From an uncultured Verrucomicrobiota bacterium (GTDB taxonomy: Bacteria; Verrucomicrobiota; Verrucomicrobiia; Limisphaerales; UBA9464), in NCBI GenBank assembly GCA_903910585.1, contig CAIWAH010000376.1, positions 1-64,000 on the forward strand: a stretch of 64,000 nt of DNA, written 5' to 3'. The notes beneath the pieces are model-generated. The model had not been told where the DNA came from and made no database searches. It saw only the letters and a list, made by a program, of their open reading frames with translations. A program made the position numbers and the translations under genes. Every line of letters starts with the position of its first letter. Within the stretch, counting starts at the first letter, position 1. Positions 42,844 to 52,068 of this stretch are shown in pieces.

Positions 42844-42882
42844 TACGAAGCGCTTCGGTGACAATCTACGAAAGTATTCGTA
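42844..42882. promoter_or_regulatory. Tandem BlaI-type operators
   Basis: Two related dyads lie 23 bp apart, about two helical turns: site 1 TACGAA-GCGC-TTCGGT (42844-42859) and site 2 TACGAA-AGTA-TTCGTA (42867-42882). Both have the TACGAA-N4-TTCG layout. Site 2 is a perfect palindrome. They precede a BlaI/MecI-family repressor gene by 10-50 bases, which is where these repressors bind to control their own operon. Confidence 0.75.
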
Positions 42883-42886
42883 TTAA
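42858..42886 (+). promoter_or_regulatory. Putative sigma-70-type promoter of the blaI-blaR1-like operon
   Basis: -35 GTGACA (42858-42863) and -10 TATTAA (42881-42886) are separated by 17 bases. Operator site 2 lies almost entirely in the spacer. Transcription would start about 6-8 bases downstream, at or next to the GTG start codon (42893), implying a leaderless or nearly leaderless mRNA. The promoter is read by eye against the consensus. Confidence 0.5.
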
Positions 42887-42892
42887 ACGTGC

Positions 42893-43270
42893 GTGCCACC
42901 GAACACCATTCCCAGACCGACCGAGTCGGAGCTGTCCATCCTGCGGATCCTTTGGCGGCGGGGCCCGAGCACGGTGCGCGAGGTCGTCGGAGAACTGGGC
43001 GCCGACACCGGCTACACCACCGCGCTCAAGCTGCTGCAAATCATGACGGAGAAGGGACTCGTGAGCCGCGACGATGCGGAGCGCACCCACATTTTTGCGC
43101 CGGCCGTGCCCGAGGAAACGACCCAGCGCCAGCTCGTGACTGACCTGCTGGATCGCGCCTTTGGCGGCTCCGCCCAGAAACTCGTCCTGCAGGCGCTCGC
43201 CGGCCGCAAGCCATCGAAGGCCGAAGTCACCGAACTGCGCCGCCTGCTGGATTCACTCGAAGGGAAATGA
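42893..43270 (+). CDS. BlaI/MecI/CopY-family transcriptional repressor
   Basis: A 125-residue winged-helix repressor. The DNA-binding domain is typical: PTESELSILRILWRRGPSTV, then REVVGELGADTGYTTALKLL (recognition region) and IMTEKGLVSRDDAERTHIFA. The C-terminal dimerisation helices (LVTDLLDRAFGGSAQKLVLQ, then LRRLLDSL) follow, including the region where BlaR1-type proteases trigger cleavage in known systems. Start is GTG at 42893; no in-frame ATG precedes the conserved domain. The stop overlaps the start of the M56 protease gene (ATGA). Two operator-like dyads lie just upstream, so autoregulation is likely. Confidence 0.94.
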   Translation: MPPNTIPRPTESELSILRILWRRGPSTVREVVGELGADTGYTTALKLLQIMTEKGLVSRDDAERTHIFAPAVPEETTQRQLVTDLLDRAFGGSAQKLVLQALAGRKPSKAEVTELRRLLDSLEGK

Positions 43271-44973
43271 ACATGAACCTGATCCTTGAACTCGTTCGCA
43301 AACCCGCCGCCATCCTATGGGCGGAAGTGCTCCTGCATTTCCTCTGGCAGGGCACCGCGGTGGCAGCGCTCTTGGCCCTGACATTGAGGCGGCTTCGTCA
43401 CGTTTCGGCACATGCGCGTTACTGCCTCGCCTGTGGAGCACTGGCTCTGATGGCGGGGTTGCCGGGCGCAACCTGGCTGGTCCTGGTCACGGGCGGAGGC
43501 TCCGGTTTGTTGGCTTTGCTCGGGGCATTGTTTGGCGCAGTTCCGGCAATTCCCGCGGTCCACCCGCTGAGGGCGCAGGCGGCCGCGGCGGCACTGCCGT
43601 GGCGCGGTTGGCTGATGCTGGTCTGGGGATTGGGAGTGGCTGCCGGTGGACTCCGGCTGGCTGGCGGTTGGTGGCAGGCGCAGCGTCTGTGCCGCCGGAA
43701 CGTCACTCCGTTGGACGAACCCTGGCCGGCCAGACTTCGGGCTCTTTCAGAGCGTCTGGGCGTCTCACGGCCAGTCCAACTGCTGGAATCGGCCCGGGTG
43801 ACTGCGCCGCTCGTGCTCGGTTGGCTGAAGCCGGTCATCCTGGTGCCGGTCGGCTTCGTCACCAGCCTGAGTCCGGACGAGGTGGACGCGATCCTGGCCC
43901 ATGAACTGGCCCACCTGCGCCGGCACGATTACCTGGTGAACCTGTGCCAGCGGCTGATTGAGGCGTTGCTGTTCTATCGCCCGGCGATCTGGTGGGTGTC
44001 GGAACGCATTCGCATCGAACGGGAGAATTGTTGCGATGATCTGGCCGCTGCCGCGGTGGGCGATGGCCGGGTGGTTGCGCGCGCGCTCGTCGCGCTGGCG
44101 GAGCGGAGCGTCGGAATTCCCGCGCTGGCCTTGGCCGCCGATGGCGGTGCCTTGGGTGAGCGCGTGCGGCGGCTGCTGGGCGCGGAGTCCGTTGGCGGGA
44201 AGACCGGGATCGGACGCCGGTTGCTTCAGGTTGCCGGCGTTGGGCTGCTGGTGTTGGGCGGCGTCTGGGCGATTTCCCAAGCCATGGCGCCCAAGCTGTT
44301 CGTGGCGATCGCGAGACTGCGTTTGGATGCGCCCTCGACGGCTGGTGAACCAGGGAAATCCGGAGGTTACGACCCCTACTTCATCCAGACCGAGTTTGAA
44401 GTCATCCGTTCTCAGACCGTTCTGCGTGAGGTGGCTGACCGGTTTGGTTTGGCCAAATCCACGGAGGCGGGTTCGCCGCTGACACCGGAACAAGCCACAG
44501 CATGGCTGCGGGAACGGGTCCGGATTACCCAAATCCGCAATACATCCCTGGTGGAGGTCCAGGTTGCCGCCGGCAATGCCGAACTCGCTGCGAGTCTCGC
44601 CAATGGGGTTGTTGACGTTTACCTCGCCCGCAGCCGGGCTCGGCGGCTGGACCAGGGAGCGAGGGAACGGGAGATCATGGAACGGGCCGCACAACAGCGC
44701 CGTAGCGAGGCGGAGAAGGTCATGGTGCACCGGTTGGAAATCGAGGGAAGGCTCGCGCGACTGGCCCCGTCCGATCCCGAACGTAAGCTCATCGGCGAGC
44801 GCGTCGATAGCCTGCGTCGAGACTACGAAGCCGGCCGGGCAAGCTACGAGGCATTGGCAGAGAGAATTCGTGGGCTGGATCTGGCGCTCCAGACTGCAGG
44901 TGGAGCCGGAGTGGTCATCGATAAAGCGGTGCCTCCGCCCCGCGCCCGCCGCTGGCGACCAGTGCGGGACTGA
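43267..44973 (+). CDS. BlaR1-type M56 metalloprotease fused to a Wzz/GumC-like domain
   Basis: A 568-residue membrane protein. Residues 1-140 hold about four membrane segments. The M56 protease has zinc motif HELAH (212-216, inside DAILAHELAHLRRHDYL) and the downstream ERENCCDD (251-258). A last transmembrane helix spans about 319-340. The sensor position, normally a penicillin-binding domain in BlaR1, instead holds about 215 residues resembling the periplasmic part of polysaccharide co-polymerases: YDPYFIQTEFEVIRSQTVLR, EVADRFGLA, RITQIRNTSLVEVQVAAGNA, ELAASLANGVVDVYLARSRA, a coiled-coil (465-545) and a proline motif VIDKAVPPPRARRWRP. The usual second Wzz membrane helix is absent. It is coupled to the repressor gene; the sensed signal is inferred, not shown. 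Confidence 0.85.
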   Translation: MNMNLILELVRKPAAILWAEVLLHFLWQGTAVAALLALTLRRLRHVSAHARYCLACGALALMAGLPGATWLVLVTGGGSGLLALLGALFGAVPAIPAVHPLRAQAAAAALPWRGWLMLVWGLGVAAGGLRLAGGWWQAQRLCRRNVTPLDEPWPARLRALSERLGVSRPVQLLESARVTAPLVLGWLKPVILVPVGFVTSLSPDEVDAILAHELAHLRRHDYLVNLCQRLIEALLFYRPAIWWVSERIRIERENCCDDLAAAAVGDGRVVARALVALAERSVGIPALALAADGGALGERVRRLLGAESVGGKTGIGRRLLQVAGVGLLVLGGVWAISQAMAPKLFVAIARLRLDAPSTAGEPGKSGGYDPYFIQTEFEVIRSQTVLREVADRFGLAKSTEAGSPLTPEQATAWLRERVRITQIRNTSLVEVQVAAGNAELAASLANGVVDVYLARSRARRLDQGAREREIMERAAQQRRSEAEKVMVHRLEIEGRLARLAPSDPERKLIGERVDSLRRDYEAGRASYEALAERIRGLDLALQTAGGAGVVIDKAVPPPRARRWRPVRD

Positions 44974-44998: not shown

Positions 44999-45421
44999 TT
45001 ACCGTTGGCTGAGTTTGTCTCGGAGGTCGGGCGCAAACGCAGAAAAGTGCCGCAGGTTGAGCGTATGGATCCGGTCCGCGCCGCACTTCCTGGCCGCCGC
45101 CAGCAGCAGCACGTCGTAGATTGCCCCGCCGCGCGCCCCGACGCCAACTGCCAGGTGAAGAGCAGAGGTGTATTCGGTCGGAGTCAGGGAAACCAAACTC
45201 AGGCGCCGGGCTACGTTGACTTCGACGAGTTCGGCGGCGGTTTCAGGAGCCAGGCGGACGGGCAGTCGGCCGCTGGTCAACGTGGCGAAACACTCGGCCA
45301 ACGAATGGGTGGCGGCATATCCGTGCTCGGCTCCAGAAAGTGCGGCGAGTGCGGCTTCATGGCTGGGATCGTCCTCAACCATGGCGGCCAGCAGGGTGGA
45401 CGTGTCGAAAAATTCCTTCAC
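44999..45421 (-). CDS. PIN-domain ribonuclease toxin (VapC-like)
   Basis: A 140-residue PIN-domain protein: MKEFFDTSTLLAAMVEDDPS with the first catalytic Asp, the internal AATHSLAECFATLTSG with the conserved Glu, and GARGGAIYDVLLLAAARKCG with the third acidic residue, then IHTLNLRHF near the end. It would act as an RNase toxin neutralised by the AbrB-type protein encoded just upstream, whose stop overlaps this start by four bases. It is inserted between the BlaR1-like gene (convergent) and the large fusion lipoprotein gene. The RNA target is unknown. Confidence 0.9.
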   Translation of the reverse strand: MKEFFDTSTLLAAMVEDDPSHEAALAALSGAEHGYAATHSLAECFATLTSGRLPVRLAPETAAELVEVNVARRLSLVSLTPTEYTSALHLAVGVGARGGAIYDVLLLAAARKCGADRIHTLNLRHFSAFAPDLRDKLSQR

Positions 45422-45669
45422 GGGCGCGAGTCACGCACGGCGTTGAGCGCGCCCAGGGCGTCAAAGGGTTTCCCGGAACGGGGCACCACCAACAGGCCGG
45501 ACTTCCGTTTCGGCTTCGGACCGGGAGGTTCCACGGGGGTGAGTTCCAGTCGGTTGCCCACCACGGCTGGCCGGAGGGCGGTGCCGGCGGCGAGGTGAAG
45601 GAGTTTGCGGATTTCCTTCGGGATCACCAACCGCCCGCTCCCGTCCATGGTGATGATGGCATCGCTCAT
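45418..45669 (-). CDS. AbrB/MazE-type antitoxin
   Basis: An 83-residue antitoxin. The SpoVT-AbrB swapped-hairpin domain is visible in ITMDGSGRLVIPKEIRKLLH, then LAAGTALRPAVVGNRLELTP. The C-terminal KPKRKSGLLVVPRSGKPFDA region probably wraps the toxin. Start is at MSDAIITMDG; an in-frame ATG at 45705 would add 12 residues. The gene overlaps the PIN toxin by four bases (ATGA), the standard antitoxin-first order, and likely represses its own promoter. Confidence 0.88.
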   Translation of the reverse strand: MSDAIITMDGSGRLVIPKEIRKLLHLAAGTALRPAVVGNRLELTPVEPPGPKPKRKSGLLVVPRSGKPFDALGALNAVRDSRP

Positions 45670-45737
45670 GGGAAGAATCGTGGCACGAGACATGGCAGGA
45701 TACAAGGCGCCTCAAACATCCCCGTTCGCCGACCCCG

Positions 45738-48700
45738 TCATTGATACACTCCAAACCATCGCTGGCTTGCGTTCGCGGAGCCGGTGACTTCGAGTGCATT
45801 GGTTCCGTCGGGCTTCAAGAGGTTCGCGACGACTTCCAGTTCAAGCACGCCGTTGCTGTCCTGGCCGCCGTTTTCGCGGACGAGGTAGCGCAGCACCGCG
45901 CGGCCGTCGGCGCTGCGCCAGATCGCGTCGTCGAGGGCGACGTTGAAGTCGAGCAGAGGCATGCCGTTGAGCCGGAGCGTGAACTTGCCCGCCGGCTGTG
46001 ACACGAAGCCCATCCCGGCGGCGAAGCGCAGGAGCGCCGTTTTGCGGGAGCCGGCCGGTGCATCGAAGCGGACCGTCAGTCGTGACCGGCCATCGGTCTG
46101 CCGGCAGTAGTGCAGCGGCAGGGTGCCGAGCCAGGAGGCGTAGGGCAGGGGATCGTAGGGCGACTCCAGCGCGGTGATCCTGACCGGCCGCAGACTGGCG
46201 AATTGGCGTCGCGCTTCGGCGGCCTGCTCGGCGCCCGCGCTGCCGAAGGCGGCCGGGGTGGACTTGATCCAGGCGATCAGGTCCGCGAGGTCGGCGGGCG
46301 TGAGTCCCTGCTCCAGGCCCTCGGGCATGAGCGAGTGTGCGTTGGGCGTGAGGCCGGCGAGGTCACCGCGACGGAGCGATTCCGTCTGGCCGCCCGGTTG
46401 AAGCAGCTTCAGGCCGGTGGCCGATTCGTCCCGCACGATGCCCGTGAGCGCACGGCCATCCTTGAGTTCGGCGGTCCACGCGAGGAATCGCGGCTCGATG
46501 GCGGCGTTGGGATTGAGGATGGCGGTGAGGAAATCGCCGACCGGTTTGCCCCGGAACGGCGCGAGGTCCGGTCCCACGTCGTAACCGTGGCCGCGCAGCC
46601 GGTGACAGCTCGCGCAAAGGCGGTCGAAGTGACCGGCACCCCGGGTCGGTTCGCCGGACAGGGGCGTGACCTCGGTGAACTTGGCTACGAGGGCGGCGCG
46701 GTCATTCGTCGTGGCGGGAAACAGCACGGACGCCTTTTCACGGATGGCAGCATTCGCATGTTGGCGGAGTTGCTGGCGCTGGGCCGGGGAAATCTCCGCG
46801 GGCGCGACGGTGCCGGCGGCGGCGGCCGCCAGCAGCGGCAGCGTCCAAACCTCCCGGCCGAGCAGCAGGCCGACTAGTTCGGCGCGCTGGCCGGCCGGGC
46901 GTTGCGGCCAGCCGGCCAGCAACTGGGCGGCGAGCTCCGGCGCTTCCTGCCGGCGCAACCCTGCGAGCAGCGACTGCTGGACGGCTGGGGGCAAGTCAAC
47001 CGTGAGGAGGGAAACGAGCTCTGCGCGTCGCTCGCTGCTGCTGCGCGCGGACTCGGCGAGCAGCGTGACGGCGGCGGCCCGGATGCGGTCCGGTTGCGTG
47101 GTGTCGGTCGCCAAGGCCCGGCCGCGATCGGCGAAACTCCGCCGCCAAGCCGCGAGCACCGGCCCGGCAGCTGGATCGGCTTCCAGCGTGGCGGAGAGCC
47201 CGGGTCGGGATTGCAGGGCCGCGAGCAGGCTGAGCGCTTCCGCGGTGCGCTCGGGCGAACCTGCCGGATCGGGTGCTGCGGGCAGCCAGCGGGCGAGTGC
47301 GGGAGCTTGGTCGGCAGCGATGAACGTCGCGAGCGCGGCGTCACGCAACGCGGCGAGCGCCGGATCTGTCTCGGGAGCCAGCGCAGCGGCGAACGATTCC
47401 GGAGCGGCCAGGGCGGAGCTCAGGATCGCCGCACGGTGCCACGGGCTGGCGGCGTCGCGGCGGGCGAGGGCGACCAGCGCGGGACCGACGGAAGGTTCGT
47501 GATATTCGCCGAGCGAGAGCGCGAGCTGGTAGCGGACGCGGGCGTCAGGGTCGTTGGTGAGTCCGGCCACGGTGCGAAGCCGCGCTTCGGGTTCGGCCAA
47601 GCGAACGGCGACACGCCGGACCTTTGGCTCGCGATCCCGGAGGCTGGTGATCAGAGTTTCGTCTGTCAGCGCGCTCAATTGGGCGAGCACAGCCAACGAC
47701 TGGCCCCGGCTGGCGGGATGACGGGAGGTGGTCGCCACACGCCCGAGAACAGAAGTGGCTGCTTTCAGCATTGTCTGCGCACCCACTTCACCCCGGCCCT
47801 CTCCCCCCGCTAAGGCGGGCGGAGAGAGAGAAACTACTTCGCCGGATGGCTTCACCGACGAGACTTGCCGGAGCAATTCAGTGTTGGTCGAGGCGGCTGC
47901 ATGGTTCTGGACGAGCCACCGATGCGCGAGGTCACGTTCGACACCGTTGGGCGAGTCCAGCACTTCGGCGAGTTGAGGGGGAGATGGCTTGGTCAAGTCG
48001 CGGATGGGGCGCGGCCTCTGACCGGTCGGAAACACCCGCCAGATGCGGCCCAGGTTCGCCCCGGCGCGCGGATCGAGTTCCTTGAGCCGTTCGGCGGGAA
48101 TCCACTTCGGATGCTCCACGACGAAGCGGTAGAAATCCACCACCCAGAGCGCGCCGTCGGGGCCGGTGCGGACCTCGACGGGCCGGAACCAATTGTCGGT
48201 GCTGGCGAGGAACTCCGAGGCCGTCTCGTCCACCGCGCGATGCGTCTTGAAGCTGAGGCCATCAGCTTCGAGCACCGCGCGGCGGACGAGGTTGTGGACC
48301 GGTTCACAGACAAAGGCGTTGCCTGCAAATTCGGGCCCGAGCAGTTCGTCGCGGTAGATTTCCGGGCCGCAGGCGCTGGTGAGGCGGTTGGCGGCGTGCG
48401 GATCGTTGAAGCGGGTCAGCGTGCGGCTGGCCGGATAGACGCGGCCGATGTCCTCGCCGTTTACGGCGGGCAAGATGATACGGGATGACGGCGGGACGAC
48501 GTGAGGATTGCGGCGGGCGTAATGGTCGGGCAGCGGGAAGTGCCAGAGCAAGGTGCTGTTGTCCTGGCCGAACCATTCGCCGAAATCGTCACGGACGCGG
48601 CCCTGCTGGCTCACACCCGCGAGCGGTTCGAACTCGCCGGTGTCGGGCTTGAAGCGGAAGTCGCGGTTGGAGCAGTCGTAGGTCTTCCCAGTTTGCGCGA

Positions 48701-50702
48701 CCGTGATCTTGCCGCCGAACAGACCGCCGGAACCATAAACCCAGCCGTCGAGGCCCCAGCGCATGCCGTTCACGCGGGCCTGGAAATTGTGCGTGGCGAA
48801 GCCGGTGAGGAGCTTGGCGGCGTGCCAGCCCTGCTTGGGTAGTAGGACAGGCGCCTCGCCTGTCTCAAGTGGTTCGGGTGCCCCCGCCCGAACATTGCCA
48901 GGTTCGACAGGCGAGGGCGCCTGTCGGACAGAGACAGCCGGGGGCGGCTGTCCCACTACCTGGCCGCCTTCGGTAACCAATGGACGGATTAACCACACGT
49001 CTGGCGCGGCGCAGACGATGACCCCGTCGCGCCACGTCATCAGTCCAGTGGGAAAGGGAAGTCCGTCGGCCACGAGTTCAGCGCGGTCGAAGCGGCCATC
49101 GCCGTTCGTGTCGGTCAGCACCTTGATGCGTCCGCCGGGCTGGCCCTGGCCGTCGAGGCCGCTGGGGTAGTCGCGCATTTCACAGACCCACAGCCGGCCG
49201 TCGGCACCGAAGTCGATGGCAACAGGCGATTCGATGAGCGGTTCGCTGGCGACCAGTTCGATGTCTATGCCGGCACGGAGTCGGAACGCGGCCTTGGCTT
49301 CCGCCGGTGATTTGGCCGGCGGATTCTCGGCGCGCTTCTGGTCGAACAGGAACGAAGCGGGCAACTGCTCCCGCACGGTGCGGACGATCAGGTCTTCGGT
49401 CTCGGGCGCGAGCTGCTGCGGGCGGTCGTAATACCAGAGCGAGGTTTCCGCCTCGTAGCCGCCTTCGCTCAGGATGCGGCGCGAAGGGATGTAGCAGGGC
49501 ACGTCGTTGGCGTAGGCATTGACCCAGAGGCGGGAAGCGTCCAGTTCGCGTTTCAGGCGCAGCGAGTAGTCCACGACCACTTCGCCCCCGAGGAACACCA
49601 TCGCCAGCTGGTCCCCGAAGCGCCACGTCTGGACCGGATAGGGCAGGGTGGGCGCAGGCGCCTCGCCGCGGTCCAGGCGGGCGAGCCACTTGCGGGCGTG
49701 GTAGCCGACGATGCCGGAGTTGGTGGCGCGGGTTGCCCACTGGGCGCGGGTGAAGTGCGGTTGGAACGGGAGTTGAACGGTTTGCAGACGGCACGTCGGC
49801 GCATTGGTCAGCTCGGTGAGCGTGGTCGCGAGCAGGCGGTTCACCTCGGCGGCAAGGGCGGTTCCATGCTTCTCCACCAGTGCCAATGTGCCGCGGGGAT
49901 CGGGATTGGCATCGGCACCGGCACCGATGGCAACTAGGGCCACGATGCCGGGATGGTCATGCTCCAGCGCCTGCGCGGCAACGCCGGCCCAGTCTCCGTG
50001 CACGGCGTTCAATTCACCTCCGAGGGTCGTGCAGTGACAGGCGTAGCTGGTGAACACGGCCCGGAGAATTCCATCGGGTGAAGTCACCCGTAGCAGCGGC
50101 AGCGCATGGTCCACTGGGCCGCCGGCAGTGCGCCGATTCTTGGCGAAGCCAACGGAACCTTGGCCCCAGGCGAGGCGAGCGGGCCGGCGATCTTCGAGGG
50201 CCCGGGCTGCCGCCAGTTCCAGTTGGTCGATGAGGAAATCGGTGTAGCGGGAAATTCGCTCCAGATTTTCGGCGCTTTGGTCGGCGGCGAAGATGTTGGG
50301 CGCAGCCCCGCGAAGACAGGGGGCGCTGTGGGTATGGGTGACGCTCAACGCAATGCCTTCTGGCGAAATCCCAAACCTCAGCTGGAGTCGTTGGCGGACC
50401 TCCTCGGTTACCTCTGCCGGCAGGATGCAGTTGTCTAGCGTGAGGAGCAGCGCGGTTTGTGGGCCTTCTCCGATTGCCAGAGCTCGGGCGTGAATCCGTT
50501 GGACGATGTTGGTCGGTGCCGGCAACTGGGCCCGGGCGGCATAACCCATCAATCGGACGGGATGAGTCGGCGAAACGTCCACCCGGGCGACTCCGACCAT
50601 CGGCAAGCCGGGATGGCGTGGCCAAATTGCACAACCGAGCAGACACAGGAACAGGGCGGCACCCAGCCAAATGCCGAAAGGGGGACGGGCTGACTTGGTC
50701 AT
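45738..50702 (-). CDS. Giant lipoprotein: ceramidase-like + PVC dehydrogenase propeller + HEAT + haem c
   Basis: A 1654-residue protein. The N-terminal lipobox LFLCLLGC suggests a lipoprotein. Residues about 30-440 resemble neutral/alkaline ceramidases (VGVARVDVSPTHPVRLMGYA, SVTHTHSAPC, CHCTTLGGELNAVHGDWAGV). From about 465, a PVC-type membrane-bound dehydrogenase N-terminal propeller follows (GIDIELVASEPLIESPVAID, FGADGRLWVCEMRDYPSG, DTNGDGRFDRA). HEAT-like repeats span about 960-1330. A C-terminal haem domain has LCASCHRLRGHGYDVGP (C1363, C1366, H1367) and ILNPNAAIEPRFLAWT. The final 200 residues are beta-rich. In PVC relatives these parts are usually separate proteins. Two in-frame palindromic elements lie inside. 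It likely acts in the periplasm; the substrate is unknown. Confidence 0.85.
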   Translation of the reverse strand: MTKSARPPFGIWLGAALFLCLLGCAIWPRHPGLPMVGVARVDVSPTHPVRLMGYAARAQLPAPTNIVQRIHARALAIGEGPQTALLLTLDNCILPAEVTEEVRQRLQLRFGISPEGIALSVTHTHSAPCLRGAAPNIFAADQSAENLERISRYTDFLIDQLELAAARALEDRRPARLAWGQGSVGFAKNRRTAGGPVDHALPLLRVTSPDGILRAVFTSYACHCTTLGGELNAVHGDWAGVAAQALEHDHPGIVALVAIGAGADANPDPRGTLALVEKHGTALAAEVNRLLATTLTELTNAPTCRLQTVQLPFQPHFTRAQWATRATNSGIVGYHARKWLARLDRGEAPAPTLPYPVQTWRFGDQLAMVFLGGEVVVDYSLRLKRELDASRLWVNAYANDVPCYIPSRRILSEGGYEAETSLWYYDRPQQLAPETEDLIVRTVREQLPASFLFDQKRAENPPAKSPAEAKAAFRLRAGIDIELVASEPLIESPVAIDFGADGRLWVCEMRDYPSGLDGQGQPGGRIKVLTDTNGDGRFDRAELVADGLPFPTGLMTWRDGVIVCAAPDVWLIRPLVTEGGQVVGQPPPAVSVRQAPSPVEPGNVRAGAPEPLETGEAPVLLPKQGWHAAKLLTGFATHNFQARVNGMRWGLDGWVYGSGGLFGGKITVAQTGKTYDCSNRDFRFKPDTGEFEPLAGVSQQGRVRDDFGEWFGQDNSTLLWHFPLPDHYARRNPHVVPPSSRIILPAVNGEDIGRVYPASRTLTRFNDPHAANRLTSACGPEIYRDELLGPEFAGNAFVCEPVHNLVRRAVLEADGLSFKTHRAVDETASEFLASTDNWFRPVEVRTGPDGALWVVDFYRFVVEHPKWIPAERLKELDPRAGANLGRIWRVFPTGQRPRPIRDLTKPSPPQLAEVLDSPNGVERDLAHRWLVQNHAAASTNTELLRQVSSVKPSGEVVSLSPPALAGGEGRGEVGAQTMLKAATSVLGRVATTSRHPASRGQSLAVLAQLSALTDETLITSLRDREPKVRRVAVRLAEPEARLRTVAGLTNDPDARVRYQLALSLGEYHEPSVGPALVALARRDAASPWHRAAILSSALAAPESFAAALAPETDPALAALRDAALATFIAADQAPALARWLPAAPDPAGSPERTAEALSLLAALQSRPGLSATLEADPAAGPVLAAWRRSFADRGRALATDTTQPDRIRAAAVTLLAESARSSSERRAELVSLLTVDLPPAVQQSLLAGLRRQEAPELAAQLLAGWPQRPAGQRAELVGLLLGREVWTLPLLAAAAAGTVAPAEISPAQRQQLRQHANAAIREKASVLFPATTNDRAALVAKFTEVTPLSGEPTRGAGHFDRLCASCHRLRGHGYDVGPDLAPFRGKPVGDFLTAILNPNAAIEPRFLAWTAELKDGRALTGIVRDESATGLKLLQPGGQTESLRRGDLAGLTPNAHSLMPEGLEQGLTPADLADLIAWIKSTPAAFGSAGAEQAAEARRQFASLRPVRITALESPYDPLPYASWLGTLPLHYCRQTDGRSRLTVRFDAPAGSRKTALLRFAAGMGFVSQPAGKFTLRLNGMPLLDFNVALDDAIWRSADGRAVLRYLVRENGGQDSNGVLELEVVANLLKPDGTNALEVTGSANASQRWFGVYQ
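47799..47826. repeat. In-frame palindromic repeat encoding SLSPPALAGGEGRGE
   Basis: The stem CTCTCC-CC-CCGC / GCGG-GC-GGAGAG with a TAAG loop lies inside the HEAT region of the large fusion gene (about residues 955-975). The encoded peptide SLSPPALAGGEGRGEVG resembles the 'LSPxGGEGRGE' peptide that arises when a widespread dispersed palindrome is read through in frame. It interrupts otherwise helical sequence. Confidence 0.7.
48842..48959. repeat. In-frame cluster of four consecutive hairpins (118 bp)
   Basis: Four hairpins follow one another: GACAGGCG/CGCCTGTC (48846-48864), GTTCGGG/CCCGAAC (48872-48893), CGACAGGCG/CGCCTGTCG (48905-48926) and GACAGCCG/CGGCTGTC (48933-48952). GTAG and CTAC flank the whole. 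Arms are perfect. The block lies in the propeller part of the large fusion gene and encodes a proline-rich, low-complexity stretch (about residues 581-622, including GQPPPAVSVRQAPSPVEPG) between conserved propeller segments, without breaking the frame. Confidence 0.85.
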
Positions 50703-50814
50703 GCCGCAGGTTGGTTGGGTATTGGGCGACAGGGAAGCGTCAAGCGGCCGAGTTTGGCCAGCCTTCCGATGCGCGCTCGACGCGTCCGCCGAGTGAACTA
50801 GAGTTGGCCCCGAC

Positions 50815-52068
50815 ATGTCTGCGCCTCTGCCGTCCGAAACCAACGGGATCTCCGTCCCAAGAAAGGTGAACTTGCGTCGTCCCGACGTGATGGAGGCGGT
50901 TTCCGCCCAGGTGGTGGCCCACTACCGGAGCGAATTGGTGGAACGTATCCGTGCCAACGGCGGCGTGATTTCCCAAGGAGAGCTCACGGTCAAGTTGGCG
51001 AAGGAGTTTGGCTTTTGCTACGGCGTCGAACGGGCCATCGACCTTGCCTACGCGGCGAGGAGGGTGTTTCCCGAGCCAACCCGGATTTTCCTGCTGGGCG
51101 AGATCATCCACAACCCCGAGGTGAACGACCAAATCCGGAACTTGGGAATCGTCTCAATTCCACCGAAGCCAACCGATGACGAATTGTCGGCGTTGGACCT
51201 GACCGCGGACGACGTGGTGATTATTCCGGCGTTCGGAACCGAAGTCGCCACCCGGCGCCGTTTGGAGGCGATCGGGTGCCAGACCGTGGACACGACCTGC
51301 GGCGACGTGATGAGCGTGTGGAAACGGGTCCGGCAGTATAGCAAGGACGGGGTCACCAGCATCATCCACGGTAAGGCCAAGCACGAGGAAACGAAGGCGA
51401 CCACTTCACAGGCGACAGCCAACGGAACCGGTCACTATCTGGTGGTCTTCAACCTCGCCGAGACCGATTATGTCTGTGACTACGTGGTGAATGGCGGCGA
51501 CCGGCAGGAATTCCTCCAGCGGTTCAAAGGCGCCCATTCCCCCGGCTTTGACCCGGACCTCCATCTTCGGGCGGTGGGTGTGGCCAACCAGACGACGATG
51601 CTGCGCGGCGAAACCGAGGAGGTTCAGCGCCGGTTTCGGTCGGCGATGGAGCGGCGCTTCGGAGCAGAGCGACTGCAAGAGCATTTCCGTGTGTTCGACA
51701 CGATCTGCGGGGCGACCCAGGACCGGCAGGATGCATTGGAAAAGATGCTCCGGGAACCGATGGATTTGCTGATCGTCGTGGGCGGATACAACTCCTCAAA
51801 CACGTCCCACCTGGCGGAAATGGGTGAGAAGGTTCTGCCCACCTACTTCATCAAGAACGCGGCAAAGATGGAGTCAGCCGGCCGCATTGAGCACTGGGAC
51901 CAGCACATCGCGGAAGAGGTTCAGACAGCCAACTGGTTTCCGACCTCGGGGCGGGTCACCGTCGGAGTTACCGCCGGAGCAAGCTGCCCGAACAACCTGA
52001 TCGAAGACACCATCAAGCGACTCTTCGAACTGCGGGACATTCAGCTGCCCCTAAGCAAAACCTCGTAG
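50815..52068 (+). CDS. ispH: 4-hydroxy-3-methylbut-2-enyl diphosphate reductase (long form)
   Basis: A 417-residue iron-sulfur enzyme for the last step of the MEP isoprenoid pathway, making IPP and DMAPP. The three cluster cysteines are in KEFGFCYGVERAID, VDTTCGDVMSVWKR and FDTICGATQDRQDALE. The ending GVTAGASCPNNLIEDTIKRL is also typical. Length and the extended N-terminus and insert match the roughly 400-residue plant/cyanobacterial-type IspH, not the roughly 310-residue E. coli type. It diverges from the large lipoprotein gene and converges with the TPR-like gene (13-base gap). Its product feeds the squalene/phytoene synthase at the window end. Confidence 0.96.
   Translation: MSAPLPSETNGISVPRKVNLRRPDVMEAVSAQVVAHYRSELVERIRANGGVISQGELTVKLAKEFGFCYGVERAIDLAYAARRVFPEPTRIFLLGEIIHNPEVNDQIRNLGIVSIPPKPTDDELSALDLTADDVVIIPAFGTEVATRRRLEAIGCQTVDTTCGDVMSVWKRVRQYSKDGVTSIIHGKAKHEETKATTSQATANGTGHYLVVFNLAETDYVCDYVVNGGDRQEFLQRFKGAHSPGFDPDLHLRAVGVANQTTMLRGETEEVQRRFRSAMERRFGAERLQEHFRVFDTICGATQDRQDALEKMLREPMDLLIVVGGYNSSNTSHLAEMGEKVLPTYFIKNAAKMESAGRIEHWDQHIAEEVQTANWFPTSGRVTVGVTAGASCPNNLIEDTIKRLFELRDIQLPLSKTS

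Follow-up and report, generated by a model that had tools for sequence, protein, structure and literature searches.

A BlaR1-type zinc protease with a polysaccharide co-polymerase ectodomain, paired with a BlaI-type repressor, in Verrucomicrobiota

What would a BlaR1-type receptor sense if another domain stood in the place of its penicillin-binding domain? To our knowledge, receptors of this type are known almost solely as beta-lactam sensors. The window analyzed here, a stretch of 64,000 nucleotides from an uncultured Verrucomicrobiota bacterium, encodes one that raises the question. Its gene occupies positions 43267..44973 (+), starts with ATG, and specifies 568 amino acids. A sequence-only reading had placed a HELAH motif at residues 212-216, and inspection of the open reading frame and its motifs bears this out; the frame is a single real gene. 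An M56 membrane protease of the BlaR1 type takes up residues 1-312, and residues 312-568 correspond to the periplasmic domain of a polysaccharide co-polymerase (PCP; Wzz, Wzc, and KpsE) without its second membrane helix. The upstream gene (42893-43270), which overlaps it by 4 nt, encodes a repressor.

The protease half is covered by Pfam Peptidase_M56 at residues 114-259 (4.2e-28). In the family profile, H212, E213, and H216 of the zinc-protease motif (43900..43914, +) align with the HExxH of Staphylococcus aureus BlaR1 (8exs), D221 with Asp210, E253 with Glu242, and D257 with Asp246, and all of these are invariant in an alignment of the homologues (20 of 20). The receptor thus has the M56 arrangement of BlaR1 pairs, namely HExxH, a glutamate as the third zinc ligand, and then an aspartate; the roles of the matching BlaR1 residues in zinc coordination and catalytic support have been described (PMC9834060). 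R301 and R302, nearly invariant among the 20 homologues, stand at the place of BlaR1 Arg293/294, whose role was described in the same work (PMC9834060). They close a near-invariant segment of the alignment, ALAAxGG....RVRR (residues 288-302; 44128..44172, +), which, judging by residue spacing, probably corresponds to the loop at which BlaR1 cleaves itself, together with the Arg293/294 helix. One conserved feature of BlaR1 pairs fails in the window receptor. Tyr261, "near strictly conserved" among BlaR1 proteins, is so important in Bacillus licheniformis BlaR1 that changing it to alanine abolishes induction (PMC9834060). Alignment with 8exs and the homologues places V270 (44074..44076, +) at this position; the other members of family f1, the window's own, which has ten short-form receptors, have leucine, and 9 of 10 long forms have tyrosine. 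By hydropathy and the models, residues 312-339 (44200..44283, +) form the fourth transmembrane helix (TM4) of the M56 part, which serves at the same time as helix 1 (TM1) of the PCP domain. A Pfam scan of the receptor found no transpeptidase or beta-lactamase domain, and NCBIfam blaR1_generic gives it 71 bits, short of that model's 400-bit cut-off. Single-sequence phmmer with the window receptor gave no match in the PDB, where BlaR1 and Wzc were reached by the family profile only.

How firm is the PCP assignment? It is suggestive from the window sequence alone and decisive once the relatives are included. PCP hallmarks had been noted after the transmembrane helix, and they are indeed present in the C-terminal half: TEFEVIRSQTVLREV, SLVEVQVAAGNAELAASLAN, a long helical hairpin, and a terminal DKAVPPPRARRW. 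The alpha/beta base (Wzz_N-like; residues 343-437; 44293..44577, +) is placed by the family profile, the models, and profile-profile comparison. In the C-terminal model, helices 131-191 and 198-236 make up the hairpin (residues 438-543; 44578..44895, +), and the closing strand with its D-x-A-x-P-P motif (44908..44970, +) is also seen in the model, the protein ending where the second PCP membrane helix (TM2) would start. Base and hairpin are thus as in a PCP, and the second of the two helices that bracket a PCP periplasmic domain is absent. The anticipated match to Wzz/PCP profiles is weak for the window sequence by itself (NCBIfam EpsF 0.0019, PRK09841 6e-4), and a single-sequence Pfam scan of the window receptor does not reach Wzz; EpsF is reached by 16 of the 23 aligned family members, with a top value of 7.4e-24. 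Against the PDB, the family profile finds Wzc chains at 7.2e-11, in an alignment that spans the N-terminal base as well as the helical part. When a profile built from the short forms only was compared with profiles for the PCPs of relatives, the alpha/beta base matched with 99.8% probability (E 6e-28), against <1% for the ectodomains of seven other M56 receptors.

The predicted structures agree. An AlphaFold2 model of residues 308-568, made with 23 sequences, has a mean pLDDT of 90.5. Comparison with Wzz structures had been proposed, and the 50 PDB matches listed by Foldseek for this model are all PCPs (Wzc, KpsE, WzzE, WzzB/Wzz-Wzy, and FepE), the best among those listed being Wzc at E 1.7e-9; TM-scores are moderate (0.3-0.6), as expected for long, bending helices. 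For the full-length model (pLDDT 83.1, pTM 0.55), the PDB matches listed are PCPs, BlaR1, and the related protease ZMPSTE24 only. A search of a viral structure library yielded nothing significant. The host genome also encodes a Wzc-like protein of its own (Wzz 1.6e-9, GNVR 6.1e-11, kinase-type ATPase domain 8.9e-16), which matches the C-terminal half of the receptor at 34% identity. Profiles, the AlphaFold2 fold, and gene overlap together strongly support the architecture first proposed from the sequence, a BlaR1-type M56 protease with a PCP ectodomain beside a BlaI-type repressor.

Is the same fusion found elsewhere in the Verrucomicrobiota, as the sequence-only reading asked? A survey of 320 genomes of the host order and a species-level genome collection yielded 20 full-length fusions from separate assemblies in six families of the order, along with partial or broken copies. 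Two of the fusions bear the organism name Verrucomicrobia subdivision 3. Among the best 80 M56 relatives in the species-level collection the fusion occurs in two, both from Verrucomicrobia subdivision 3, and in a sample of 388 genomes from the phylum no fusion was found outside the host order. The M56-PCP receptor is real, conserved, and unusual. It comes in two forms. The short form, that of family f1, measures 532-568 amino acids and stops right at the proline motif. The long form, mostly of 700-770 amino acids, has an extended hairpin and, in several cases (L040, L041, L144, L149, and L151), TM2. The earlier statement that the second Wzz helix is missing consequently holds for the window's short-form subfamily but not for these long-form sisters. 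A single origin of the whole fusion was considered and rejected: on quick trees, the PCP halves of all fusions cluster together and are compatible with one origin (p-AU 0.49), but the M56 halves of the short and long forms reject a single clade (p-AU 0.006). The latter result makes it likely that parts have been re-joined or sensors swapped.

The partner gene (42893..43270, +; GTG start) encodes a BlaI/MecI-type winged-helix repressor of 125 amino acids (Pfam Penicillinase_R 1.7e-24), which phmmer matches to the solved repressor structures 2g9w (4.9e-7) and 1sd4 (1.2e-5). An adjoining, overlapping repressor gene of this family is a feature of BlaR1 pairs. The 4-nt overlap recurs in most relatives, and the fusion genes nearly always sit immediately downstream of a BlaI-type repressor gene. 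Asn101-Phe102, which we take to be the cleavage pair of S. aureus BlaI, is seemingly not conserved in the window repressor when compared by eye.

As in BlaR1 pairs, dyads lie at the repressor's own promoter, and these putative operators are conserved across the order. The upstream dyad, TACGAAGCGCTTCGGT (42844..42859), has TACGAA-N4-TTCG half-sites and keeps its position in nearly all related operons; the core dyad, TACGAAAGTATTCGTA (42867..42882), is a perfect 6-4-6 palindrome found also at the BlaI promoter of relatives. Between them, a consensus reading gives a putative -35, GTGACA (42858..42863, +), separated by a 17-bp spacer from a putative -10, TATTAA (42881..42886, +), which is read directly from the sequence and overlaps the core dyad. 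The arrangement is conserved in relatives, with TTGACA or TTGACT as the -35 between the dyads and a -10 that overlaps the end of the second dyad. Double dyads of the form TACGAA-N4-TTCG(T), spaced 21-23 bp around the -35 and -10, occur in 25 of 27 operons of the window's repressor class, L040 and L041 being the only ones without the pair at the threshold used. The transcript is predicted to start about the GTG of the repressor gene. The predicted -10 stands 6 nt ahead of that GTG (window 42881-42895), which suggests a leaderless transcript.

What else might the repressor control? The first reading had expected a regulon near polysaccharide genes, an expectation that finds no support, as the operator is found only at BlaI promoters and no polysaccharide gene is a conserved neighbor. 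In the 5.3-Mb host assembly as a whole, the perfect dyad is present at a single site. The exact ten-base core, TACGAANNNNTTCG, occurs genome-wide only in the two promoter dyads and inside two coding sequences (a methyltransferase-like open reading frame beside an epimerase-like one, and another of 930 amino acids), and these two sites were taken as chance. A search of the host genome with zero, one, or two mismatches gave no target beyond the BlaI promoter, in an assembly that is 89% complete and in which weak sites could be missed; two-mismatch sites number 45, versus 37 for a reversed-pattern control. Across 21 fusion-bearing genomes there are eight exact dyads, all at BlaI promoters. Since exact operators occur only there, the operon itself is the only target, and autoregulation the only output, that the sequence supports.

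Among the relatives, the receptor has no conserved neighbor besides BlaI. The window gene also differs from typical PCP genes in lying outside a polysaccharide cluster, its neighbors being a formyl-transferase/ACT (PurU-like) gene, a PIN/MazE-type pair, and a gene for a DUF7133/cytochrome protein. The PIN-domain/MazE-type toxin-antitoxin pair (44999-45705, -) adjoins the last of these, a 1701-amino-acid protein (45738-50843, -) with a ceramidase-like N terminus, DUF7133, HEAT repeats, and cytochrome c. In one genus (L124-L127), a second M56 gene, of 639 amino acids, lies upstream of and divergent to the fusion operon.

How might the two proteins work together? On balance, we lean toward a one-component proteolytic switch of the BlaI-BlaR1 type in which a captured PCP domain serves as the periplasmic sensor. 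Gene order and the conservation of catalytic residues and promoter dyads make it a sound inference that the protease would act as a switch on BlaI. The repressor would bind the two dyads over its own promoter and hold the two-gene operon low. From the inner membrane, the receptor would expose its zinc protease to the cytoplasm and its PCP domain to the periplasm; the junction is topologically sensible because TM4 in BlaR1 and TM1 in a PCP cross the membrane in the same direction, from cytoplasm to periplasm. PCP domains form oligomeric rings and contact glycan machinery, so the likeliest input would be how the PCP domain is assembled or occupied, whether its own oligomer or its contact with a resident Wzc/GumC ring or with glycan. 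A change there would move TM4 and open the protease, the repressor would be cut, and the operon would be derepressed. In BlaR1, a change that starts in the ectodomain reaches the zinc site in the cytoplasm, and cleavage of the repressor follows (PMC9834060, PMC7593790). For the window pair we infer repressor proteolysis, autoregulation in vivo, and the signal, and the protease may have substrates besides the repressor. Several observations speak against a proteolytic switch. Having no regulon target but the operon itself is odd for a switch that would answer a change in polysaccharide export. The Tyr261 position holds valine or leucine in the f1 short forms, some family members are broken, and the cleavage pair of S. 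aureus BlaI is seemingly not kept in the window repressor.

Set beside BlaI-BlaR1 and MecI-MecR1 of S. aureus and B. licheniformis, the pair has the same Penicillinase_R repressor next to an M56 protease, the same HExxH...ExxxD, TM4, and extracytoplasmic C-terminal domain, and dyads at the repressor promoter. It differs in its sensor, a PCP where theirs is a penicillin-binding domain akin to class-D beta-lactamases; in having neither beta-lactamase nor PBP2a as a target; in an operator of the form TACGAA-N4-TTCGTA; and in short forms without Tyr261. With the PCPs (Wzz, WzzE, and FepE of PCP1; Wzc, GumC, and EpsF of PCP2; and KpsE) it shares TM1, base, hairpin, and a closing strand with a proline motif, as well as TM2 in several long forms. 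Unlike them, the fusion draws its TM1 from the protease, has no tyrosine-kinase domain, and sits outside a polysaccharide cluster; the window form, moreover, has a shortened hairpin and no TM2. On sequence grounds, the receptor is a BlaI-BlaR1 chassis save for Tyr261; it does not qualify as a beta-lactam sensor, nor, for want of TM2, as a complete PCP.

Could the same switch answer a different input? The PCP domain might sense periplasmic strain, stretch, or peptidoglycan, or provide an oligomerization handle, with no link to a polysaccharide machine. We hold this rather improbable, though not negligible. It would fit the want of a conserved polysaccharide gene beside the operon, the presence of unrelated ectodomains such as secretins in the same repressor/promoter class, and an M56 receptor from G049 (L228, 814-2535, -) that retains the coiled-coil part of the PCP only, its alpha/beta base lost. 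However, the base is otherwise well preserved, as the 99.8% profile match attests, and would be needless for a mere handle, and the PCP domains of the fusions cluster together and remain under constraint.

A second alternative reverses the direction, with the PCP docking the protease on the export machine, the protease degrading one of its components, and BlaI only setting the amount of protease. That the operon is the only demonstrable operator target is easier to square with a protease that limits itself than with a regulator acting on distant genes, and the complete two-helix PCP of several long forms could join a PCP ring. Yet BlaI and M56 make up a classical repressor-receptor pair, and we know of no substrate for such a protease, which also counts against an arrangement that we judge unlikely.

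Are the short forms, the window's included, simply degenerating? Their protease might be weak or constitutive and the operon mainly silent and on its way to being lost. TM2 and the Tyr261 equivalent have both disappeared in the same lineage, and there are broken f1 copies in relatives (G020 without the N terminus, G046 and G048 with internal stops). The fusion is also absent from the sister species in the window's genus, and together with the broken copies this makes it a dispensable trait. Within one genus, dN/dS is higher in the PCP half (0.44-0.79) than in the M56 half (0.13-0.38); the PCP half changes faster than the protease half yet remains constrained, and sensor domains often evolve faster. 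Against decay stand the low values of the M56 half, the intact promoter dyads, the ten short forms of full length, and the retention of the zinc ligands, Asp221, Asp257, and Arg301/302, and we give this explanation a small chance. The sequence-only reading had itself raised an assembly error joining two genes, and this, like a chance coiled-coil resemblance to Wzz, can practically be dismissed despite the failure of the window's single-sequence Pfam scan to find Wzz, as 20 homologous fusions in separate assemblies exclude the former and a PCP fold match at E 1.7e-9, with the alpha/beta base aligned and not the coiled coil alone, excludes the latter.

Other M56 receptors of the order carry ectodomains of a similar kind. 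Large secretin-type ectodomains occur in L212 (2060-4681, -), L213 (1056-5957, +), L214 (965-6217, +), L217 (1899-5000, -), L218 (1118-4573, -), and L231 (490-4692, +), most of these six lying downstream of the window's BlaI class and double-dyad promoter. Secretin (PF00263) was confirmed in L212, L213, L217, and L218, with values of 8e-28 to 9e-40 in L212, L213, and L217. L212, L213, and L217 are among those with this repressor class and promoter, and YscJ/FliF domains appear in their close relatives: L219 (1713-3551, -) has a terminal one (PF01514; 4.3e-34), and L218 carries YscJ/FliF and Secretin on one receptor. All have the M56 part and an ectodomain from an envelope machine, and the M56-secretin receptors share the BlaI class and double-dyad promoter with the PCP fusions; they differ in that the ectodomain is Secretin or YscJ_FliF. 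Tethered as it is to an inner-membrane protease, the secretin domain cannot be an ordinary outer-membrane channel. On contig C141 of the host genome, a more distant M56 protein of 1234 amino acids (L256, 1770-5471, +) carries Secretin_N and Secretin.

PCP domains are also found on other proteins. In two Ser/Thr protein kinases, L255 (810-3629, +) and L252 (1964-5116, +), a membrane helix is followed by a short PCP domain; L255, which comes from the sister species in the window's genus, also matches the SecDF P1-head. A protein of 1391 amino acids (L253, 1595-5767, -) has a PCP base domain followed by VWA/YfbK, its first ~690 residues being without a Pfam match. That Ser/Thr kinases in the same family also carry a PCP is an independent sign that it can serve as an input domain, and the secretin and YscJ/FliF receptors make the use of envelope-machine parts as ectodomains look like a habit of the lineage. 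It is possible, and we offer it tentatively, that a lineage-wide class of receptors carries a part of an export machine (PCP, secretin, or YscJ/FliF), reads machine assembly through the resident paralogue, and cuts a BlaI-type repressor.

The open-access literature searched holds no prior description of M56-PCP or M56-secretin receptors. Because the gene pair recurs in many related bacteria, it has the appearance of a new kind of envelope sensor, in which a protease-repressor chassis is fitted with a part of the polysaccharide export machine and, in sister lineages whose promoters follow the same logic, with parts of secretion machines. If this is true, the proteolytic switch would give a bacterium a direct, protein-level route for monitoring whether its own envelope machines are assembled or active. 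It would also offer a tractable case for how an M56 protease passes a signal through TM4 without a beta-lactam, and a chassis for swapping sensors.
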